Source: Bacteroidota bacterium (GTDB lineage Bacteria; Bacteroidota; Ignavibacteria; Ignavibacteriales; Melioribacteraceae). From it: a stretch of 37,284 nt of DNA. The position numbers were made by a program, and so were the translations under genes. The notes under the pieces were generated by a model. That model worked only from the letters and a program-made list of their open reading frames with translations, did no database searches and was not told where the DNA came from. Of this stretch, positions 2,016-37,284 are shown piece by piece. Position 1 is the stretch's first letter. Each line of letters begins with the position of its first letter. The stretch is taken from the NCBI GenBank assembly GCA_018829545.1, contig JAHJTX010000053.1, forward strand, positions 1 through 37,284. Direction: 5' to 3'.

Positions 2016-3320
2016 ATGAACACTGTTGAACTAATCAGAAAAAAAAGAGACAAGAAAAAATATTCGGAAGAGGAACTTGGATTTTTAATTAAAAATTATA
2101 CTGCCGGGAAAATTCCCGATTATCAAATTTCTTCCTTTTTGATGGCTGCGTATTTGAACGGAATGGATAAGGATGAAACCGCGTACTTGACAAAGGCAAT
2201 GCTGTACAGCGGAATTGTAATTGATCTTTCGAACATCAAAGGACCAAAAGTTGACAAGCATTCAACCGGCGGCGTAGGAGATAAAACTTCTTTAATTATC
2301 GCGCCAATTGTTGCCGCAGCCGGAGTTAACGTCCCAATGATTTCAGGAAGAGGACTCGGTCATTCGGGAGGAACATTAGATAAGCTCGAATCAATTCCTG
2401 GCTTTAGAACTAATCTTTCGTTATCCGAATACAAAAGGGTTATTAAAAAATGCGGCGCAGTTTTAATCGGTCAGACTTCAAACATCGCTCCGGCAGATAA
2501 ATTAATTTACGCACTTCGCGACGTTACCGCAACCATCGAATCAATTCCATTAATCACCGGCAGCATTATGAGCAAAAAGCTTGCGGAAGGAATAGATGGT
2601 CTTGTGCTCGATATTAAATGCGGCAGCGGAGCGTTTATGAAAGATTTCAAATCCGCGAAGAGCTTAGCTTCGTCCCTAATAGATACAGCAAAGGCTTTCG
2701 ATAAAAAAGTGATTGGTATTATAACTGATATGAATCAACCTCTTGGTAATTACATTGGAAACTGGTTGGAGGTTTTTGAATCTATTGAAGCTTTACAGGG
2801 CGCTGAGATTGACGATCTTATGACCGTTTCGCTGAATTTATCTGGAGCTATGATTTATATGGGAGGAAAAGCTTCATCAATTAAAGAAGGGATTGAAATT
2901 TCAAAAGACATAATTGCTTCCGGAAAAGCGATGGATAAATTTATTGAGATTGTAAAAAATCAAAACGGCGATGTATCTTTTATTATGAATCCAGGTAAGT
3001 ATCCTAAATCAAAATATTCCGAAGTTGTAAGCGTGTCTAAGAATGGCTATCTGAAATTTGTTGATAATTATGAAATAGGAATGTCTGCTTTGGAACTAGG
3101 GGCTGGGCGAATGGTTAAAGAGGACGTGATTGATCCTAAAGCTGGAATCGTATTCATAAAGAAAATTGGTGATTATGTAAAAAGAGGCGAGCCGGTTGCC
3201 GTGATGTACACAGATAGAAAAGCAAAAGTTGACCCAATAAAAAATCGCATTACTAGCGCGCTGGTTTTAGACAAATATCCACAGCCTAAAATGCGTTTAA
3301 TAAAAAAGATTATTGAATAA
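2016..3320 (+). CDS. pdp: pyrimidine-nucleoside (thymidine) phosphorylase
   Basis: Reversible phosphorolysis of thymidine/uridine/deoxyuridine to base plus (deoxy)ribose-1-phosphate, in pyrimidine salvage. It carries the family signature SGRGLGHSGGTLDKLES and, before it, KVDKHSTGGVGDKTS for phosphate binding. ALRDVTATIESIPLI and SIMSKK are also typical. The length (434 or 436 aa) matches Bacillus Pdp and E. coli DeoA, and residues 345-434 form the usual C-terminal alpha/beta domain. Two in-frame ATGs compete, 2010 and 2016. I chose 2016 (MNTVELIRKKRD) because the family starts there and AACGGAA sits about 8 bases upstream; 2010 remains possible. The SPFH gene follows after 26 bases, so co-transcription is likely. 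Pdp versus DeoA naming is uncertain. Confidence 0.94.
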   Translation: MNTVELIRKKRDKKKYSEEELGFLIKNYTAGKIPDYQISSFLMAAYLNGMDKDETAYLTKAMLYSGIVIDLSNIKGPKVDKHSTGGVGDKTSLIIAPIVAAAGVNVPMISGRGLGHSGGTLDKLESIPGFRTNLSLSEYKRVIKKCGAVLIGQTSNIAPADKLIYALRDVTATIESIPLITGSIMSKKLAEGIDGLVLDIKCGSGAFMKDFKSAKSLASSLIDTAKAFDKKVIGIITDMNQPLGNYIGNWLEVFESIEALQGAEIDDLMTVSLNLSGAMIYMGGKASSIKEGIEISKDIIASGKAMDKFIEIVKNQNGDVSFIMNPGKYPKSKYSEVVSVSKNGYLKFVDNYEIGMSALELGAGRMVKEDVIDPKAGIVFIKKIGDYVKRGEPVAVMYTDRKAKVDPIKNRITSALVLDKYPQPKMRLIKKIIE

Positions 3321-3346: not shown

Positions 3347-4216
3347 ATGGTTTTTATAATTGCTGTAATTGTAATAGTTGTTGGAATTGGTTTCTACTTC
3401 AACTTAAGAAAAACAGGCAGAAAACAAGAGGCAAATGTTTCATCGCTTGCTATTTTGATCGGTTTTCTTGTGGCGGTGTTTAATTTGTTCACTGTTGTTC
3501 CGGCGGGAACGGTTGGCGTCGTGGACTTTTTAGGACAAGTAAGCGACAACACTCTTAAAGCAGGAGTTAATATCGTCAATCCAATGGCGAATGTAATTAA
3601 GTTCAGCATTAAGACTCAAGAAATTAAAGAGACTATGAATGTTCCGTCTCAAGAAGGGCTGAGCGTTCAGCTCGAAATCAGTATTCTATTCAAACTGGAT
3701 GCTGAGAAAGCAAACCAAATTTATAAAACAGTTGGACCGACTTACGCGGATATAATTTTAATGCCGCAGTTTCGTTCGGTTGTACGCGGCGTTACGGCTA
3801 GATACGAAGCAAAAGCTCTGTATACAGCTTCCAGAGAGAGGCTTGCCGGCGAGATTGTAGATGAACTGGAAAACCTTGTTGGTCCTAGAGGAATTGTAAT
3901 TGAAGCCGCTGCTATGAGACAAATTATTCTTCCGCCGAGATTGACGCAGTCTATTGAAGAAAAACTTCAGGCGGAACAAGAAAGCCAGAGAATGGCTTTT
4001 GTGCTGCTAAAAGAAGAGCAGGAAGCTGAAAGAAAACGAATCGAAGCCAAGGGTATTGCAGACTTCCAGGAAATAGTATCCGAAGGAATTAATCAAAACC
4101 TTCTTAGATGGAAAGGAATTGAAGCAACCGAAAAACTAGCAAATTCTGCCAATGCAAAAATTGTTGTAATCGGTTCGGGGAAAGACGGACTGCCATTGAT
4201 TCTTGGAGGCAATTAG
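3347..4216 (+). CDS. SPFH/band-7 (prohibitin-like) membrane protein
   Basis: Membrane-anchored scaffold of the stomatin/prohibitin superfamily; such proteins form ring oligomers that organise membrane proteases or microdomains. Two hydrophobic stretches (about residues 2-18 and 34-51) precede an SPFH domain from about 52 (VVPAGTVGVVDFLGQV) to 215. This is followed by a charged coiled-coil (AEQESQRMAFVLLKEEQEAERKR) and a short C-terminus ending in LILGGN. The 289-aa length is usual. The start is strongly supported by GGGAGG about 6 bases upstream of ATG 3347. It is probably co-transcribed with the phosphorylase gene upstream, with no evident functional link. The exact partner protease or role cannot be read from the sequence. 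Confidence 0.9.
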   Translation: MVFIIAVIVIVVGIGFYFNLRKTGRKQEANVSSLAILIGFLVAVFNLFTVVPAGTVGVVDFLGQVSDNTLKAGVNIVNPMANVIKFSIKTQEIKETMNVPSQEGLSVQLEISILFKLDAEKANQIYKTVGPTYADIILMPQFRSVVRGVTARYEAKALYTASRERLAGEIVDELENLVGPRGIVIEAAAMRQIILPPRLTQSIEEKLQAEQESQRMAFVLLKEEQEAERKRIEAKGIADFQEIVSEGINQNLLRWKGIEATEKLANSANAKIVVIGSGKDGLPLILGGN

Positions 4217-4255
4217 ATTTGAAATAAAAACTTTTAGTTGATCAATATTCTATAT

Positions 4256-4339
4256 GGAAGTTGTCTCAGAAACCATGAGTGCTTTTATAATTTGGGTATT
4301 CCTAAATTGCAAAAGTCTTTTGGCTCTGAGACAACTTCC
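4256..4339. repeat. 84-bp element with perfect 15-bp terminal inverted repeats
   Basis: GGAAGTTGTCTCAGA (4256-4270) is exactly repeated as its reverse complement at 4325-4339. Inside, CTTTT..ATTT and AAAT..AAAAG form a second nested stem. It fills the gap between two convergent genes (stops at 4216 and 4365). There is no T-tract directly after either arm, so it is not a standard intrinsic terminator, and no clean target-site duplication is visible. A MITE or IS-end remnant, or a bidirectional terminator, are both possible. Confidence 0.75.
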
Positions 4340-8333: not shown

Positions 8334-8741
8334 TTACCAAAGAATTAAAACAACTGTAAACACCACAGTATTTGCAAGTTGATATCCGGTATTCAGAAAT
8401 AGCAATTTATTTGAAATGCCTTCGTAAAGACCGTTTACAAGAAATGGAGCAAATGTTAATCCAAGCCATACCGCCAATCCAATACGCAAGCCTTCCATAA
8501 TGGACTCAGCGCCCGCTAAAGAAAAAACATAGGCTAACGCTAGAGCCATTATCATTTGTCCGAGAACAGAGAGCGAATAAGTTTTCGCCGGATTAAATTC
8601 TTTCTTTAGCTCTTCTTCGGTTTTGCCAACTTCTTTCATCCAAGCTTTACCGAAAATTGGGCCGTACCATAAAAATCCCACAACCATTGAAAGAATACCG
8701 CAAACCAGCACAGCTAAGTAATTTATTTCGATGCTATGCAT
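8334..8741 (-). CDS. DUF1761 family membrane protein
   Basis: A 135-aa inner-membrane protein with four hydrophobic helices (about 8-26, 57-75, 83-100 and 115-134). The DUF1761 hallmark is the N-terminal VGFLWYGPIFGKAWMKEVGKT, a helix followed by W-Y-x-P-x-F-G-K-x-W. The family has no established function. ATG 8741 is preceded by AAAGGAG at good spacing. The gene is followed by a strong terminator and preceded by 47 bases after the isoaspartyl peptidase stop, in the same direction. Confidence 0.9.
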   Translation of the reverse strand: MHSIEINYLAVLVCGILSMVVGFLWYGPIFGKAWMKEVGKTEEELKKEFNPAKTYSLSVLGQMIMALALAYVFSLAGAESIMEGLRIGLAVWLGLTFAPFLVNGLYEGISNKLLFLNTGYQLANTVVFTVVLILW

Positions 8742-8788
8742 ATGATCTCCTTTTGTTCGTTTTATAATTCCTCTTATCGAGGCAGTCT

Positions 8789-9829
8789 TTAATCTTTGTA
8801 TAAAGCAGTATTGGGAATACCTTTATCTGTAATAAAACCGCGGAACATTCCGTCCGTATTAAAAATCATTGTTATATTTCCAAGTCTATCTATTCCGATT
8901 ACACCGCCTTTACCATTTTGTTTTTCTAGTTTATCCATAACAACTAAACTTGCCGCTTTGTTAATGGATAAATTTTTGTATTCCATCAACGCAGAGATAT
9001 CGTGCGTAACAACGTTTCGTATAAAAAACTCTCCATGTCCAGTTGCGGAAAGCGCGCAAGTTTTGTTATTTGCATAAGTACCCGCTCCAATGATCGGAAC
9101 GTCGCCCACTCTTCCGAACCGCTTATTTGCCATTCCTCCTGTTGATGTGCCTGCTGCGAGATTCCCGAATTTATCTAATGCCGCACATCCAACCGTCCCG
9201 AATTTATTATTCCCGCTATCAATAATCAAATTTGATTCGGATTTTTTCTTCCTTTCTTCAGCGTGGATTTTATTTATTTCTTTTAATTTGTCTTCCGTAA
9301 TAAAATATTCATTGCTCACTTTTTCCATTCCATTTTGAAGGGCAAAAACTTCCGCGCCTTCTCCTATCATCATTACGTGAGGAGAGTTTTCCATTATTTT
9401 TCGCGCTAGTGAGATCGGGCTTTTGATATGTTTAATTCCTGCAACTGCGCCGGCGCTAAGATTTTTTCCGCTCATAATTGCGGCATCAAGTTCTACTGTT
9501 TTTTCTGAGGTTAATACCGCGCCAATTCCCGCATTAAATAACGGCGATTCCTCCAAAACTTGAATTGTCTTTTCAACAGCATCTAAAGCCGTTCCGTTAT
9601 TCTTTAATATCTCATAACCAATAAGAAGAGCTTCTTTTAATTTTTCTTTATAAGCCCGCTCTTCCATTTCGGAATATCTTCCTGGATAAATGTATCCAGC
9701 GCCGCCATGAATCACCAAACCGAATTCAGTTACCTTTTCGCTTGCGAAATTAGTTTCTTCAATATCTTTTACGCATGAGTTGAAGACAATCATGAATGCT
9801 GCCATCAAAAAAACTTTGAATATTTTCAT
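8789..9829 (-). CDS. isoaspartyl peptidase/type 2 (plant-type) L-asparaginase, lipoprotein
   Basis: An Ntn-hydrolase that autocleaves and hydrolyses isoaspartyl dipeptides and/or asparagine. The 346-aa precursor starts with a lipoprotein signal peptide (MKIFKVFLMAAFMIVFNSC, lipid-modified Cys19), so it is exported and probably membrane-anchored. The self-cleavage site with nucleophile Thr212 is in NKFGTVGCAALD. Substrate-binding TSTGGMANKRFGRVGD and GAGTYANN follow, and HGGAG is near residue 41, as in the family. Most bacterial homologues are cytosolic or periplasmic, so lipidation here is notable but not unusual in Bacteroidota-like organisms. It lies 34 bases after the KefB-type antiporter in the same direction. 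Confidence 0.93.
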   Translation of the reverse strand: MKIFKVFLMAAFMIVFNSCVKDIEETNFASEKVTEFGLVIHGGAGYIYPGRYSEMEERAYKEKLKEALLIGYEILKNNGTALDAVEKTIQVLEESPLFNAGIGAVLTSEKTVELDAAIMSGKNLSAGAVAGIKHIKSPISLARKIMENSPHVMMIGEGAEVFALQNGMEKVSNEYFITEDKLKEINKIHAEERKKKSESNLIIDSGNNKFGTVGCAALDKFGNLAAGTSTGGMANKRFGRVGDVPIIGAGTYANNKTCALSATGHGEFFIRNVVTHDISALMEYKNLSINKAASLVVMDKLEKQNGKGGVIGIDRLGNITMIFNTDGMFRGFITDKGIPNTALYKD

Positions 9830-32588: not shown

Positions 32589-33278
32589 TTATTCTAGCCT
32601 AAAAGTTATTTGAGCTGTTATGCTTGATTTATATGCTTGCGGAATATCAAGCAGAGTGGAATTATCTTCAGACGATGCCGTAAAAAAGAGCGGCTCGCCT
32701 CCTCTTTCGTGTCTTCCCAGCCTGGTTTCTATTTCTGTCACTATTGCGAGCGTCAAATTAAGACTCTTGGCGTAAATTTCAGCTTCTTTTTTAGCCGAGG
32801 CAACGATTTGTTTAATTCCCCTTTCTTGCGCTTCTTCAATATTTGAAGTTGAAAAAACGCTTTTGAAGGAGCTTATCCCGCTCTGAAGCAAAAGAATTTG
32901 AAGTGTCTCATATTTACTAAAATCCGCAATTTTTATTCTAATTGTTTGAGAGGTTCTATAATTTTTCACATCAGTTCTAGAATTTGTGAGCCGATTTATA
33001 TTTAGCAGTGAGTAAGCAATATTTGAGTCCTGAATCTCAAGCTGCTTCAACAATTGAATCAGCGCTATCTCTTTTTCTTTGTGAATTTTGAAAGCGATCT
33101 CGGCTGACTCATTTTCTGAGCTCAAATCAATTCGGAATATAACCTGGTCAGCCGGGATAGAAATATCTGTTACAGCTTGAATAGTAAGAAATACATAATT
33201 CCCTTCTTGCGCAACATTGCCGCAAAAGGATAGGAATAACAATGTTATAGAAAGTATAAGTTTCTTTGCGTGACTCAT
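32589..33278 (-). CDS. SIMPL-domain (DUF541) secreted protein
   Basis: A 229-aa exported protein with a signal peptide (KKLILSITLLFLSFCGNVAQE) and a SIMPL/DUF541 domain. Recognisable parts are VFLTIQAVTDISIPADQVIFRI at the start, KEIALIQLLKQLEIQDSNI and RTSQTIRIKIADFSKYETL in the middle, and QIVASAKKEAEIYAKSLNLTLA before the C-terminal strand SITAQITFRLE. The family is periplasmic or outer-membrane-associated with poorly defined function (E. coli YggE is linked to oxidative stress). AAGGAGT precedes ATG 33278. It is upstream of, but probably not co-transcribed with, the efflux operon. Confidence 0.85.
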   Translation of the reverse strand: MSHAKKLILSITLLFLSFCGNVAQEGNYVFLTIQAVTDISIPADQVIFRIDLSSENESAEIAFKIHKEKEIALIQLLKQLEIQDSNIAYSLLNINRLTNSRTDVKNYRTSQTIRIKIADFSKYETLQILLLQSGISSFKSVFSTSNIEEAQERGIKQIVASAKKEAEIYAKSLNLTLAIVTEIETRLGRHERGGEPLFFTASSEDNSTLLDIPQAYKSSITAQITFRLE

Positions 33279-33316: not shown

Positions 33317-33643
33317 TTACAATTCAGAAATCATTCTTATTGCCTCTATTTTCTCTTCGTCTAATCCATTCAGATCATCAATTGATAAATAGCCTTCCCT
33401 TATTAAGATTCCGAACACTCTGATCAATTGAGAATATCTGTAATCATATTTTTCATCTACCCAGTCTCGCCGTGTGGTTAAATAATCGTGTAAACTCCAG
33501 ATATCTTTGTTCTCTTTTATCTTTGCAACTTTCTCATAAATTTGATTCTTTAACTCCTCCATCTCACGATTATATGCCAGATCAAAAGAAGCTCGGGCAA
33601 TCTTCTTCTCGCTCGGAGTCCATTTGAATTCACGAATACTCAT
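33317..33643 (-). CDS. conserved hypothetical protein (SIREFKW..EKK family)
   Basis: A 108-aa soluble, charged protein. The start is ATG 33643 (MSIREFKWTPSEKKIARASF), supported by GGAG about 6 bases upstream; four residues further upstream are in frame but unneeded. The helical body contains IWSLHDYLTTRRDWVDEKYDYRYSQLIRVFGILIREGYLS and DLNGLDEEKIEAI. I have the impression of a widespread small family in diverse bacteria but can assign no function. Its first third and upstream DNA are duplicated at 34986-35174. It is the first gene left of the proposed cassette array, 38 bases from the SIMPL gene. Confidence 0.7.
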   Translation of the reverse strand: MSIREFKWTPSEKKIARASFDLAYNREMEELKNQIYEKVAKIKENKDIWSLHDYLTTRRDWVDEKYDYRYSQLIRVFGILIREGYLSIDDLNGLDEEKIEAIRMISEL

Positions 33644-33732
33644 TTTTTGCTCCAATTATTTTATCAGCATAACGCTTCAGTTAACCAGCTTGCTCGGATG
33701 GTTTTTATCAGGGGTAACCCAGAATAAATGCG
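33548..33732. repeat. direct repeat copy 1 (shared with 34986-35174)
   Basis: About 185 bases, covering the 5' third of the hypothetical gene and its upstream region, recur as copy 2. The coding part is roughly 92% identical by eye. The upstream part, with a GTTAACC..GCTTG hairpin-like element, is less similar. The hairpin in copy 1 is degenerate. Confidence 0.8.
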
Positions 33733-33773: not shown

Positions 33774-34130
33774 TTATTGTAAATCAAAAACTAATTTTAA
33801 TGCTCTCTCTATTTCTGTTAGTTTGTTTTCTGATAGTTGCCCGCGAATTTTAACTAGTCTAAATTGATGATCAATTGGTCTTGTCTGAAGGCAATCTGCG
33901 ATGGATTTTTTGGTAAGTCCATTTTCTTTTGATGGTTCTAAGAAAACGTTTGTGTGTACTTGAGCTTTCTTTTCGTTCCACGAGGTTATTGGAACAACTT
34001 GAATTACGGGAACCCTTTGATTGTAAACATCGTTCGTAACAACAATGCATGGTCTTATTTTGCCGGTTTCAGATCCCTTCACTGGATTCAAATTTATATC
34101 TATGACCATTCCCCTTTTTATCGATCTCAT
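33774..34130 (-). CDS. PemK/MazF-family toxin (predicted mRNA endoribonuclease)
   Basis: A 118-aa toxin of a type II toxin-antitoxin pair. The MazF/PemK pattern is clear: RGMVIDINLNPVKGSETGKIRP (usual RGDIWxxxLdPxxGsE..K.RP), CIVVTNDVYNQ, VVPITSW (usual VxPiTS) and the C-terminal KSIADCLQTRPIDHQFRLVKI with RGQLSENKLTEIERAL. It overlaps the antitoxin gene by 4 bases (ATGA), typical for these pairs. It is expected to cleave mRNA at specific short sequences when the antitoxin is degraded; the specificity is not readable. The pair sits among integron-cassette-like genes, a common home for stabilising toxin-antitoxin modules. Confidence 0.9.
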   Translation of the reverse strand: MRSIKRGMVIDINLNPVKGSETGKIRPCIVVTNDVYNQRVPVIQVVPITSWNEKKAQVHTNVFLEPSKENGLTKKSIADCLQTRPIDHQFRLVKIRGQLSENKLTEIERALKLVFDLQ

Positions 34131-34360
34131 TTAGGCCAATCTTCAATTGCTGAGTTCGTCAAATCCCTTAATTCTGAATCCTCTTCATAAATCTCGGCAT
34201 AAAGCTTAGCCGATTTTATTAACTCTTGCTTTTCTACTGATCTAATAAACTTTTCAATTGCAGACCGAACAAGCGAACTTTTATCTTTAAAGCCAAGCTC
34301 CCGATACATGTTTAAAAAATCTATGTGGTTCTCATCTAAACTTATTTTAGCTTGTTGCAT
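34127..34360 (-). CDS. RHH-type antitoxin partner of MazF
   Basis: A 77-aa protein with a ribbon-helix-helix N-terminus: QQAKISLDENHIDFLN (strand and helix 1) and GFKDKSSLVRSAIEKFIRS (helix 2). The acidic C-terminal tail (LYAEIYEEDSELRDLTNSAIEDWPK) is suited to wrap the toxin. It precedes the toxin and overlaps it by 4 bases. Antitoxins of this type usually repress their own promoter. GAGG lies about 7 bases before ATG 34360. Confidence 0.85.
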   Translation of the reverse strand: MQQAKISLDENHIDFLNMYRELGFKDKSSLVRSAIEKFIRSVEKQELIKSAKLYAEIYEEDSELRDLTNSAIEDWPK

Positions 34361-34663
34361 AATAACCTCGTTTGGCTCTTAGAATAGTTCCAGTTTTCAT
34401 GTCCAATATAGGGGTCTCAACTGTAATTATCAACACTTTGTTGGATGAATATACCCGTATGCAGGTGAGCTGTCTCCCAGTAGACATTAGATCACAAAAC
34501 AGGATGCGCCATAAATATGAATATTGCCGCCTTGAAAAGAAGCGGTCAACTTGATGGGATAGTTCGGCATATTCCTAAAACTTAATTCCACTTTTTAGCT
34601 CAATGGTTGTATTTCGAGATTTTCGTGTTGGAGATTTTGTGGCTTTTGTAAAATCGTTAGTTA
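34361..34663. other. 303-base gene-free stretch upstream of the toxin-antitoxin pair
   Basis: I see no convincing gene on either strand. It should hold the promoter of the antitoxin gene. CCGCCTT..AAGCGG (34526-34545) forms a small hairpin. A GTTRRRY-like GTTAGTT (34656-34662) lies 2 bases from the next gene's stop, but a matching partner arm is unclear, so I do not call an attC site here. A 60-codon plus-strand frame at 34372-34554 shows no gene features. Confidence 0.5.
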
Positions 34664-34945
34664 TTACATGTAAAGTTTCACAAGGTTGTTAATACTTTTT
34701 CTCTCACTTAGTGAAGTAACATAACCTTTTGTGATATAAGATAATTCTGACGCTAGTGATATTTTATCCCAGTTAATTATGTCTTTGCTAATTCCTAGAC
34801 TTATTCCAAGTCGTGGACTATTATTGTTTACTTGAAATGCAACTACTCCGCCAAACTTTAGTGAAATATCTTCTAATATTTGAGCTTGAGAGCTGTTAAG
34901 TAAACAAACTGTAAATAATACGATGCAGGCAAGTGTCTTTTTCAT
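34664..34945 (-). pseudogene. truncated outer-membrane beta-barrel protein (PorT-like) fragment
   Basis: A 93-aa frame starting at ATG 34945 with a signal peptide (MKKTLACIVLFTVCLLNSSQAQ). It continues with LKFGGVVAFQVNNNSPRLGISLGIS and ISLASELSYITKGYVT, the strand pattern of the first part of PorT-like barrels (compare EINYIQKGF in the full gene at 36102). Complete members have about 200 residues; this one ends after the fourth strand at a normal TAA. No continuation is found downstream, so it is a fragment or decayed gene. No ribosome-binding site is visible. Confidence 0.5.
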
Positions 34946-34985
34946 AATCAGTATAATTTTTTTTTCGGGGCGCATCGCCCATGGA

Positions 34986-35081
34986 CTTTAACTCCTCTAT
35001 CTTGCGATTATATGCCATATCAAAAGAAGCTCGGGCAACCTTCTTCTCGCTCGGAATCCATTTGAATTCACGAATACTCAT
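34986..35081 (-). pseudogene. 5' fragment of the SIREFKW hypothetical gene (second copy)
   Basis: MSIREFKWIPSEKKVARASF and the next 13 residues (MAYNRKIEELK) closely match the start of the intact gene at 33643. Similarity stops abruptly at GAGTTAAAG (34986); beyond it the frame runs into unrelated sequence leading to the barrel fragment. It is part of the direct repeat. Confidence 0.8.
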
Positions 35082-35174
35082 TTTTTGCTCGATTTATTTT
35101 ATCAAAATAATGTGGTTGCCGTTAACCGGCTTGCCCCGATGTTTTTTATCGGGTGCAGGCCAGAACAAGAATGC
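34986..35174. repeat. direct repeat copy 2, including a well-formed hairpin
   Basis: Homologous to 33548-33732. Upstream of the truncated gene it carries GGCTTGCCCCGAT (35128-35140) pairing with ATCGGGTGCAGGCC (35148-35161) around GTTTTTT. It has one G-T wobble and one bulged A, and is flanked by GTTAACC. Confidence 0.8.
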
Positions 35175-35245
35175 CGAATAGTTGCAAATAACTCTATTTA
35201 TAAAAATGTTTCTTAGAACAACCTACCTTAAAGAGCAACTAAACT

Positions 35246-35302
35246 TTATAACTGCACAAATACCGCTCTGAAAAACGCTGACCGTGTTGATTGGCGTTAT
35301 GT
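35246..35302 (-). other. candidate integron attC site 1
   Basis: A 57-base imperfect palindrome bounded by TTATAAC (35246-35252) and GTTATGT (35296-35302), near the attC ends RYYYAAC/GTTRRRY. Arms ATAAC..GC.CA..A.AC.G.TC pair with several mismatches. It ends 10 bases from the stop codon of the DUF3267 gene, as expected for the attC of a cassette. 57 bases is a classic attC length. Confidence 0.55.
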
Positions 35303-35312
35303 GCGTTTTTAC

Positions 35313-35867
35313 TTAATATTCTTCTATCGATTCTCCGGGTTCATATATTTCACAACCACACTTATCTGGACAATCCAGTACCAATGAGTTTTTAGATTCA
35401 TTTCTTATTTTCCACAATATTATTAAATCACCACCAGCTGCTAAAATAAATATTATTCCAAAACTGTATATGATATTATGCCCAATTACTAATCCAATAA
35501 TTGCTGGCATGATTCCTAAAATGATAAGTGGTGCTAATACAACTATTCGATAATCTATAACAGACAATGGTTCTTTACAATGACAATAGGGAGTTAAAAG
35601 CTTCCAAGAAATCCCCAACTTTATACTCTTCATTCCTTGTTTGTTAAATTTTATCGCAAAAATACCGTGTATTAATTCGTGAATAAAAACACCTATCAAA
35701 TAAATTAGCCAATAAGGATATTTATATGGGATTACTAGTTTCTACCAAAACAAGGAATACAAAAAGTAGAAAATGACAAAGATTGGAATCCCCAACAAGA
35801 GTGTATAAAAATTAGCTCTCCAAAAGCTAATTGATACATCTCGTTTTCTTATACTTTCTGTTTCCAT
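35313..35867 (-). pseudogene. DUF3267 zincin-like membrane metalloprotease gene with in-frame amber stop
   Basis: From ATG 35867 the frame reads METESIRKRDVSISFWRANF, then a TM, until codon 42, a TAG at 35742-35744. Without any frame change it continues KLVIPYKYPYWLIYLIG into the zinc motif HELIH (63-67), CHCKEPLSVIDYRIVVLAP, AAGGDLIILWKI and a cysteine-rich tail. Together these 184 codons have the normal DUF3267 layout (integral membrane, putative site-2-like zinc peptidase), so the stop is a recent nonsense change or is read through. Translation could also restart at the TTG before IGVFIHELIH (128 aa). It is a single-gene cassette between candidate attC sites 1 and 2. Confidence 0.8.
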
Positions 35868-35905
35868 AGCAATAAATTTATTTTTAATCTAATTTAGATA
35901 TCAGC

Positions 35906-36093
35906 ACCTAACGCCGAAAATAAGCGGCGGTGATTTAACAGCAATGATTTCAAAAAACTCCAAATTTTAACGCCACAAAAAAAGCCGGATTAATGTAATC
36001 AACACGAGCAACATTTTCACAGAAGTTCGACCAACTCAAAAACCTGAAAAAAGCCGCCGATAACACCCGTCCGCTTAATTTTTATTGTTATGT
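35906..36093 (-). other. candidate integron attC site 2 (long)
   Basis: Ends are ACCTAAC (35906-35912, exact RYYYAAC) and GTTATGT (36087-36093). AAAATAAGCGGCGGTG (35917-35932) pairs with the right arm, whose complement reads AAAATTAAGCGGACGGGTG, leaving three single bulged bases, all on the gene-proximal arm. At 188 bases it is longer than most attC sites because of a large loop. It ends 8 bases from the next gene's stop. Confidence 0.62.
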
Positions 36094-36101
36094 GAATTTG
36101 T

Positions 36102-36728
36102 TTAAAAAATAACACCTATTCTAAAATCAATTGAACTAGCTTTTACTTCTAAATTAGGATTTTTATATACCTCTCTAATATTTAGATCATACAATACTTC
36201 TAATAACAACCCATATTTCAATATTATTATTTCAGTTCCTACTCCAAATTTAAGACCGATCATATTTTTGTTAAAATCATCATAGAAATCACCGATTGGA
36301 TAATTACTTGATTTTCCTATTTCAAAATCCATTCTAGGTCCAAATATTAAATAAGGAACAAGAAAACTAAAATTTATTTTTGGTTTTACGAGTAAAGAAA
36401 TGTTTATGTAGTCAAACCTCACTTTTCTTAATAATGACTCCGTTTTATAATCATTATTTACTCTAATTGCACGATATAGCTCTTCTTGAAAACCTTTTTG
36501 AATATAGTTTATTTCGCCAATAAAACTTATAAAACACCAATCATAAAATTCTGCAAATACACCAATATTAAAACCAACCTTCTTATCCATAACATAATTA
36601 CCCAATTGAGAATACTCCCATGTTTGATATGATACTGTTTCTCCGATTTTTATTCCATACTTATTTAGGAATTGCGAATAGGAAGAAGTTGCTAATAGAA
36701 TAAAAAATATAAAAAATAGTTTTTTCAT
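36102..36728 (-). CDS. PorT-like outer membrane beta-barrel protein
   Basis: A 208-aa exported protein with signal peptide MKKLFFIFFILLATSSYSQ and alternating amphipathic strands with aromatic ends: KYGIKIGETVSYQTWEY, VGFNIGVFAEFYDWCFISFI, GEINYIQKGFQEELY, FDYINISLLVKPKINFSF, YLIFGPRMDFEIGKS, MIGLKFGVGTEIIILKYGLL and a final SIDFRIGVIF ending in Phe. This is the pattern of PorT/OmpA-like eight-stranded barrels common in Bacteroidota-like genomes. Function is unknown. It is a single-gene cassette between candidate attC sites 2 and 3, on the minus strand like its neighbours. No good ribosome-binding site is visible. Confidence 0.8.
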   Translation of the reverse strand: MKKLFFIFFILLATSSYSQFLNKYGIKIGETVSYQTWEYSQLGNYVMDKKVGFNIGVFAEFYDWCFISFIGEINYIQKGFQEELYRAIRVNNDYKTESLLRKVRFDYINISLLVKPKINFSFLVPYLIFGPRMDFEIGKSSNYPIGDFYDDFNKNMIGLKFGVGTEIIILKYGLLLEVLYDLNIREVYKNPNLEVKASSIDFRIGVIF

Positions 36729-36754
36729 AAGAATCCTTTGAATTTAATATACCG

Positions 36755-36849
36755 ACATAACGGCTGGTATCAGCGGACTTAGGCTTGTAAAACCTTCATT
36801 CGCCAAATCACCGTCCGAGCCTAAGTTCCGTTGCATACGATTGTTAGCC
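36755..36849 (-). other. candidate integron attC site 3
   Basis: A 95-base imperfect palindrome with ends ACATAAC (36755-36761) and GTTAGCC (36843-36849). The stem pairs GTATCAGCGGACTTAGGCT with an arm whose complement is GTATGCAACGGAACTTAGGCT (split here into the blocks GTAT, CGGA and CTTAGGCT). The extra bases bulge from the gene-proximal arm, a typical attC asymmetry. It ends 7 bases from the stop of the next gene. Confidence 0.7.
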
Positions 36850-36856
36850 ACTTTGA

Positions 36857-37284
36857 TTAGTTGAAAACCAAGTAGTTGATATTATTTAATTTATCGCCTT
36901 CTTCCATATAAATATCAACTGATAGATTATATTGTTTTTCAATGTTCATAAATTCTTTCATACTGTATTTTTCACCCTTACTTTTTAGTAGTAATCTATA
37001 TTGTCGATCATTTAAGAGCGAAATAGTATCACACAATTTTTCAAAAAAGTTAACAAGCTGATCGTAGTATTGACGATATTCAATAGGCACTGATTCATCA
37101 ATATTGGAATCAATTTCATGTAATTCTTGTAATTTATCACTAAATAAATCAATCAATTTTTCAGTTTGATTGAATATATCTTGAAAATCTACCCTTTTAA
37201 ACAGACTTAAAAAAGTAGCAGATTTTTTAAAAATTGTATCATGGATTTTAATATAAATTGACAGAAGGTCATGAACTTCTGCCG
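36857..37284 (-). CDS. hypothetical helical protein, 5' end beyond window
   Basis: The frame is open from the stop at 36857 to the right edge of the window (at least 141 residues), so the start lies outside. The visible part is helical and charged: VHDLLSIYIKIHDTIFKKS, FLSLFKRVDFQDIFNQTEKL, LFSDKLQELHEIDSNIDE, YRQYYDQLVNFFEKLCDTIS and LLNDRQYRLLLKSKGEKYS, ending NINYLVFN. An internal TTG at 37156 is a less likely start because the upstream frame has the same composition. No family is recognised. Its stop is 7 bases from candidate attC site 3, so it looks like the next cassette of the array. Confidence 0.65.
   Translation of the reverse strand, partial: AEVHDLLSIYIKIHDTIFKKSATFLSLFKRVDFQDIFNQTEKLIDLFSDKLQELHEIDSNIDESVPIEYRQYYDQLVNFFEKLCDTISLLNDRQYRLLLKSKGEKYSMKEFMNIEKQYNLSVDIYMEEGDKLNNINYLVFN

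Follow-up and report, generated by a model that had tools for sequence, protein, structure and literature searches.

According to the IntegronFinder 2.0 paper (PMC9024848), complete integrons were already known from Chlorobi and Ignavibacteriae. An earlier note on the DNA analysed here had called integrons little described in this bacterial group, which in view of these finds is only partly right; the surveys report integrons there sporadically, and the locus described below adds a well-supported attC array. According to established integron biology, the bottom strand of an attC site would fold into a hairpin, whose unpaired spacer and extrahelical bases would be recognised by the tyrosine recombinase IntI. 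The enzyme would cut at G^TT, and the gene would leave as a circle that could be inserted elsewhere. Extrahelical bases direct the choice of strand, and swapping the conserved G among them has a small effect on integration (Bouvier et al., PMC2727003).

The window, that is, the whole stretch of DNA that was analysed, is an entire contig of 37,284 bases (G000:C3), and position 37284 is thus the contig end. It comes from an assembly of 408 contigs and 4.1 Mb that is 98.6% complete. Among the papers searched, none describes this genome or its attC types. At its right end, the contig holds a worn array tail of gene cassettes (integron); the bacterium is of Ignavibacteria type. With a probability of roughly 93%, this tail is the distal (integrase-far) end, in part decayed, of the cassette array of a chromosomal integron. 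The array edge is well supported, and it belongs with the already known integrons of the IntI/attC type as a further member.

attC sites in the window

In each unit of the array, an attC site comes after a single minus-strand gene, and all genes have the same orientation. Three palindromes reported in the earlier note are all present at the positions given there, and we refer to them as W1, W2 and W3. The sites start 8–9 bases past the stops of minus-strand genes at 36857, 36102 and 35313, in agreement with their reported placement just after stop codons. W3 (36755–36849, minus strand) starts 8 nt after a stop codon and consists of the R'' box GGCTAAC, the stem GTAT[G]CAACGGA[A]CTTAGG and the R' box CGTTATGT. 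W2 (35905–36095, minus strand) has the R'' box ACATAAC, the stem AAAAT[T]AAGCGG[A]CGG and the R' box GTTAGGT. When the arms are aligned, both extrahelical bases (in brackets) of W2 and W3 lie on the gene-proximal (5') arm only, as had been claimed. Judged by their R'' and R' boxes, their spacer and an L stem with two gene-proximal extrahelical bases, the W2 and W3 palindromes are attC sites. The T (W2) and the G (W3) at the first bulge are probably tolerable, since replacement of the conserved G has a small effect (PMC2727003).

All 37 kb were scanned for stems anchored on AAC...GTT, with dinucleotide shuffles as control. W2 scored 20–22, the top of the 37 kb (35910–36089, 20.2, rank 1 in the anchored scan), and W3 (36759–36845) scored 19.2, rank 3. 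In shuffled sequences, scores of at least 19 were reached about 0.25 times per window. A palindrome bounded by AAC...GTT, with a score of 20.1, was also seen far from the array at 8942–9067; it is probably a chance or coding-region feature.

W1 (35105–35307, minus strand) is of a long type, in which the 5' half (35245–35304) is well preserved and the 3' half (about 35105–35135) is decayed. R1, a covariance model built on the attC sites of relatives, gives this 5' half 32.6 bits on the minus strand (E 4e-5 in 0.5 Mb, 3.4e-4 genome-wide). A check by covariance model had been proposed, and one window site thus stands well above background. This score is not fully blind, because the R1 search motif was a relative's site chosen partly for likeness to W1. 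The reading of the third palindrome, 35246–35302, as an attC site holds in that R1 finds it there, but the palindrome is merely the 5' half of a longer, decayed site. A model of the 3' half, R3, gave only a non-significant trace on W1 (E 0.32). R1 does not match W2 or W3, which are of another attC subtype than the R1-type sites.

R1-type sites elsewhere in the genome

R1 was built from six seed sites near the integrases of relatives, five from loci with a true IntI and one from a genome (G045) with no IntI over cut-off. Regular-expression descriptors of attC arms had recovered too little, and direct-repeat clustering upstream of IntI had yielded mostly other repeats. Apart from W1, R1 has 26 matches in the genome at E values up to 10, including 19 with E <0.05. 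These matches are independent of the W1-guided choice of seeds. They are mostly grouped on small contigs (six on C281, three on C273, others on C395, C227 and C283), and on C281 and C273 they are clustered in arrays of same-strand small genes. A genome-wide scatter of the palindromes away from such genes, which had been named as grounds for refutation, was not found. Parts of the array lie on a dozen or more small contigs. Arrays of this kind can be found with a model from relatives even where no integrase has been assembled.

R1 was at one point taken for a complete attC site of 60 nt; this was dropped, as C281 shows R1 to be the 5' half of a longer site. Full-length attC sites on the genome's own contigs measure about 160–270 nt, with R''/R' boxes such as GCATATAAC / GTTATATGC and an asymmetric spacer. 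Their L stem, for example GCAACT[C]AAAGCG[A]CTGC, has the bracketed bases unpaired on the 5' arm (C281, C273 and others), and these extrahelical C and A correspond to G and T on the bottom strand. The order R''/L''...L'/R' together with asymmetric extrahelical bases on the 5' arm was found in W2, in W3 and in the full-length sites of C281, C273 and other contigs.

Cassette genes and the left limit of the array

Each cassette holds one or a few genes in the same orientation, and the attC site comes right after the stop. The rightmost cassette gene (36857–37282, minus strand; 141 aa, no Pfam match) runs off the contig end, so that its 5' part is missing. It is followed by a gene for an outer-membrane beta-barrel protein of 208 aa (PF13568; 36102–36728, minus strand). 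The next gene (35313–35867, minus strand) encodes a DUF3267 putative zinc peptidase (PF11667) and is interrupted by an in-frame TAG at 35742–35744; this is the broken protease of the earlier note, and an intact copy exists in a relative (G048).

Further left, decayed cassette material (34664–35081, minus strand) consists of a truncated FRP-like copy (34896–35081) running into a signal-peptide/barrel-like fragment (34664–34975), as seen by eye in comparison with 33317–33655. A possible decayed attC 5' half lies at 34508–34571 on the minus strand (10.1 bits, E 0.84 in 7.3 kb; alone non-significant). Next comes a toxin-antitoxin pair (33774–34360, minus strand), made up of a PemK/MazF-like gene (PF02452) and a 77-aa upstream ORF. 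Toxin-antitoxin pairs are typical cassette cargo. The leftmost of these genes is an intact FRP-domain gene (PF18032; 33317–33655, minus strand), with an R'-like end, GCGTTATGC (about 33668–33676), before the gene; the assignment of this end to an attC site is weak. The window thus holds two FRP-like genes, with a photoprotection regulator domain (PF18032), of which the one at 34896–35081 breaks off after some 31 residues and is joined to the barrel-like fragment.

The array had been thought to end at 35246. Instead, small minus-strand genes and decayed remnants continue to about 33.3 kb, and the attC traces there are weak. Since the sequence-only model R3 has no significant match in the window, this left limit rests on gene content and weak attC traces. 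We read the region left of W1 as the putative worn distal end of the array. A SIMPL-domain (DUF541) gene at 32589–33278 adjoins the array on the left, and a second SIMPL gene is a cassette in C281 (L225:1978-2655). In view of these two genes, the array could formerly have extended beyond its present left limit.

Cassette boundaries and exchange between arrays

The R'' at the end of an integron cassette and the bases that follow G^TT at the start of the same cassette have to be complementary to each other. On C281, this complementarity was found in the seven consecutive cassettes that were read, two of them with a change inside AAC/GTT itself. In the window, the barrel cassette starts with GTTATGT, complementary to its own attC start ACATAAC at 4 of the 4 variable bases, and the DUF3267 cassette shows the same complementarity with one mismatch. 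The expectation that cassettes end at G^TT is therefore borne out. A homologue of the barrel gene in another genome (G074:C120) is directly followed by an attC site.

The DUF3267 protein is 77% identical in amino acids to one encoded at G048:C31:16966-17343, in another family of the order, where the gene is intact and lies inside an R1-type attC array. DNA identity between the two copies is 43% before GTT, 71–87% through the cassette, and 48% and 35% past the attC start, so that the homology block begins exactly at G^TT and ends in the cassette's own attC site. The neighbours differ: in G048 they are a methyltransferase cassette and a toxin-antitoxin-like pair, in the window the barrel gene and the FRP fragment. 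A homology block with differing neighbours is the pattern that cassette exchange would leave. The earlier view of one-gene cassettes as mobile units gains from this cassette, which is common to families of one order and whose homology is cut at the recombination points. On the same contig of G048 (L265:240-570 and 2880-3190), long near-identical stretches flank different cassettes; these are perhaps duplicated cassette ends.

What the analysis shows is the anatomy of the sites, the G^TT boundaries, the homologous cassettes of other families and a system of IntI with attC in the order; the recombination mechanism would be that of established integron biology.

The integrase

No IntI over the TIGR02249 cut-off was found in the 98.6%-complete assembly, and protein searches of it gave no fragment. 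No attI was seen in the contig, which ends before the proximal side; the same holds for an IntI with the IntI-specific insertion near the array. The earlier note had named the lack of an integrase in the genome as grounds for refutation, and this is the only one of its named tests that went against an integron array. As the assembly contains no IntI, the array as it stands is by strict definition a CALIN, i.e. a cluster of attC sites lacking an integron integrase; W1–W3 lie within 1.8 kb.

The search for integrases covered 77 genomes, the window's own and those of 76 relatives within the order; 32 of them have an IntI over the TIGR02249 cut-off, and in many relatives attC sites lie close to true IntI genes. 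Across the 76 relatives, R1 sites occur in 30 of the 32 genomes with IntI and in 23 of the 44 without it (Fisher p 1e-4). The IntI of the window's genome was either lost or lies in an assembly gap. There is somewhat less than an even chance that the living organism has a complete and possibly active integron, with intI and attI beyond 37284 or in another unassembled gap. The frequency of IntI in the order speaks for it, as does the spread of the array over small contigs, a fragmentation of the kind that loses genes. In addition, the cassettes read right to left and an attC site comes after each gene, which puts the integrase side to the right of the contig end. Against it stand the near-complete assembly without a fragment of IntI and the 23 IntI-negative relatives that keep attC sites, from which it follows that integrase-less arrays are common.

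The layout of intI and attC varies among the relatives. In 11 of them both are on one strand, with attC downstream (G034:C8, G058:C141, G016:C4, G053:C3, G067:C16, G009:C5, G069:C35, G073:C84, G024:C221, G075:C81 and G007:C69). G013 and G052 have the usual divergent layout, and in G006 and G008 attC is on the same strand and upstream. In G008 the sequence around the intI start is repeated two more times inside the array (L078:1517-1582, 4199-4290, 8740-8920); it looks as if intI/attI ends were copied into the array.

A possible second cassette system in the same genome

A second type of hairpin site was found with a model, R2, which matches 28 places in the genome, on contigs C324 (L299), C306 (L300), C286 (L301), C19 (L302) and C131 (L303). 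R2 sites are hairpins of about 131 nt, mostly 8–60 nt after a gene stop and on the same strand. The G^TT rule also holds for the ends of their cassettes (31 of 44 variable bases, against a permutation mean of 16.8; p 1e-4), and 63 distinct sites contain 345 compensatory cells compared with 112 in shuffles. R2 sites have no regular bulges. Two of their pairs are fixed as A (5' arm) and C (3' arm), in 95% and 78% of the 63 distinct sites, and these positions are T.G wobbles on the bottom strand. We infer that the two A.C positions may set strand polarity.

R2 sites are associated with a recombinase of the type encoded on contig C267 (p 7e-4) and not with IntI (p 0.17), the reverse of R1 sites; arrays near this recombinase carry hairpin sites of another type than attC. 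The protein is about 280 aa long, Xer-like and without the IntI insertion, and is 68–92% identical across genera, occurring in Ignavibacteria, Calditrichota, Marinicella, Cyclobacteriaceae and others. The copy on C267 (L013:257-1018) is frameshifted; intact ones are found in relatives, Calditrichota and Marinicella. It is the best non-Xer match to the integron-integrase model in the genome and falls under the TIGR02249 cut-off. It was considered as a divergent IntI and dropped on account of this score and of the missing insertion, which is seen in the relatives' IntI. The protein scores slightly above the cut-off of NCBIfam NF040815 ('site-specific tyrosine recombinase/integron integrase'), and the recombinase family is therefore known by name.

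Upstream of C267-type recombinases there is a conserved attI-like site, in which the spacing between TAAC and a hairpin around TATACGCAATTGCGTATA is constant; past this site lies a divergent cassette gene (L013:188-237, L098, L099, L100, L101, L103, L104 and L118-L122). Beside a C267-type recombinase in G014:C13 (L104:3280-7002), several tandem palindromic repeat units (TATAACAACCGCATCAACTTGAATT...) were seen with few or no genes between them.

The chance is somewhat better than even that cassettes are recombined in this genome by two separate systems, of which one is the IntI-type array of the window and the other an undescribed integron-like one that has a tyrosine recombinase without the IntI insertion and hairpins without extrahelical bases, and in which the two A.C positions may set polarity. 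A literature search that left most subscription papers and preprints outside its range found no description of this second system. If it is real and new, integron-like gene capture needs neither the IntI protein nor extrahelical bases. Two systems in one genome would also make sites, recombinases and cargo directly comparable, and the choice of strand on a folded DNA site could be tested in a natural alternative design.

Other explanations of the window sites

The existence of a second system raises the question of whether the window sites belong to it and were run by the Xer-like recombinase on C267. Apart from XerC/XerD, no other recombinase of the genome gives a clear score with the integron-integrase model; the one on C267 adjoins the conserved TAAC...GTTA site and a divergent gene, and the sites of the second system also come after gene stops. 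W2 and W3 both show TAACA...CCGTTA and were for a time considered as sites of this type, a candidacy dropped on the result with R2, which finds no site in the window even at E 10, and on a comparison of bulges, which the window sites have and R2-type sites lack. Moreover, R1-type and R2-type arrays are on different contigs, and R1 sites do not track the C267-type recombinase across the 76 relatives (p 0.4). This assignment is thus largely refuted, and we consider it very improbable.

Slightly more improbable still is that the palindromes are ordinary intergenic inverted repeats, such as terminators or REP-like elements, which lie between small genes by chance. Thermodynamic folding on its own would allow it: the isolated W1 hairpin has a modest z of -2.1 against shuffles, and many shuffles fold as well as W3 (z -1.0). 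Free folding and simple arm scores are non-specific, in that shuffles reach similar values and similar arm counts in a fold-only scan, and the free fold alone is unconvincing for the window sites. Terminators would not be expected, however, to give the result of the anchored stem scan, conserved bulge positions, G^TT complementarity or a cassette-sized homology block in another family. At gathering thresholds no Rfam family matches in the window, and the arrays on C281 and C273 also speak against ordinary repeats. The integron array is the reading that we retain.

Comparison with known systems

The array resembles the sedentary chromosomal integrons, for example that of Vibrio cholerae with its VCR sites, in having one gene per cassette, one orientation and an attC site after the stop. 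R and L boxes, an unpaired spacer and a crossover at G^TT are common to both, as are bottom-strand extrahelical bases (PMC2727003). In contrast to those integrons, the full-length sites on the genome's own contigs are about 160–270 nt long, the integrase was not found in this assembly, and the cargo consists of lipoproteins, barrels, toxin-antitoxin genes and a methyltransferase. With the CALINs of IntegronFinder (PMC9024848), the array shares at least two attC sites on one contig and no IntI adjoining or in the assembly. The Treponema integrons (PMC3607928) have attC downstream of IntI on one strand, the same atypical layout as in the 11 relatives; they belong to another phylum, and the layout is seen in the relatives and not in the window's own genome. 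The integrons of Ignavibacteriae and Chlorobi in the IntegronFinder surveys (PMC9024848) come from the same broad group as the array in the window, a group in which, by our search, IntI passes the TIGR02249 cut-off in 32 of the 77 genomes searched.
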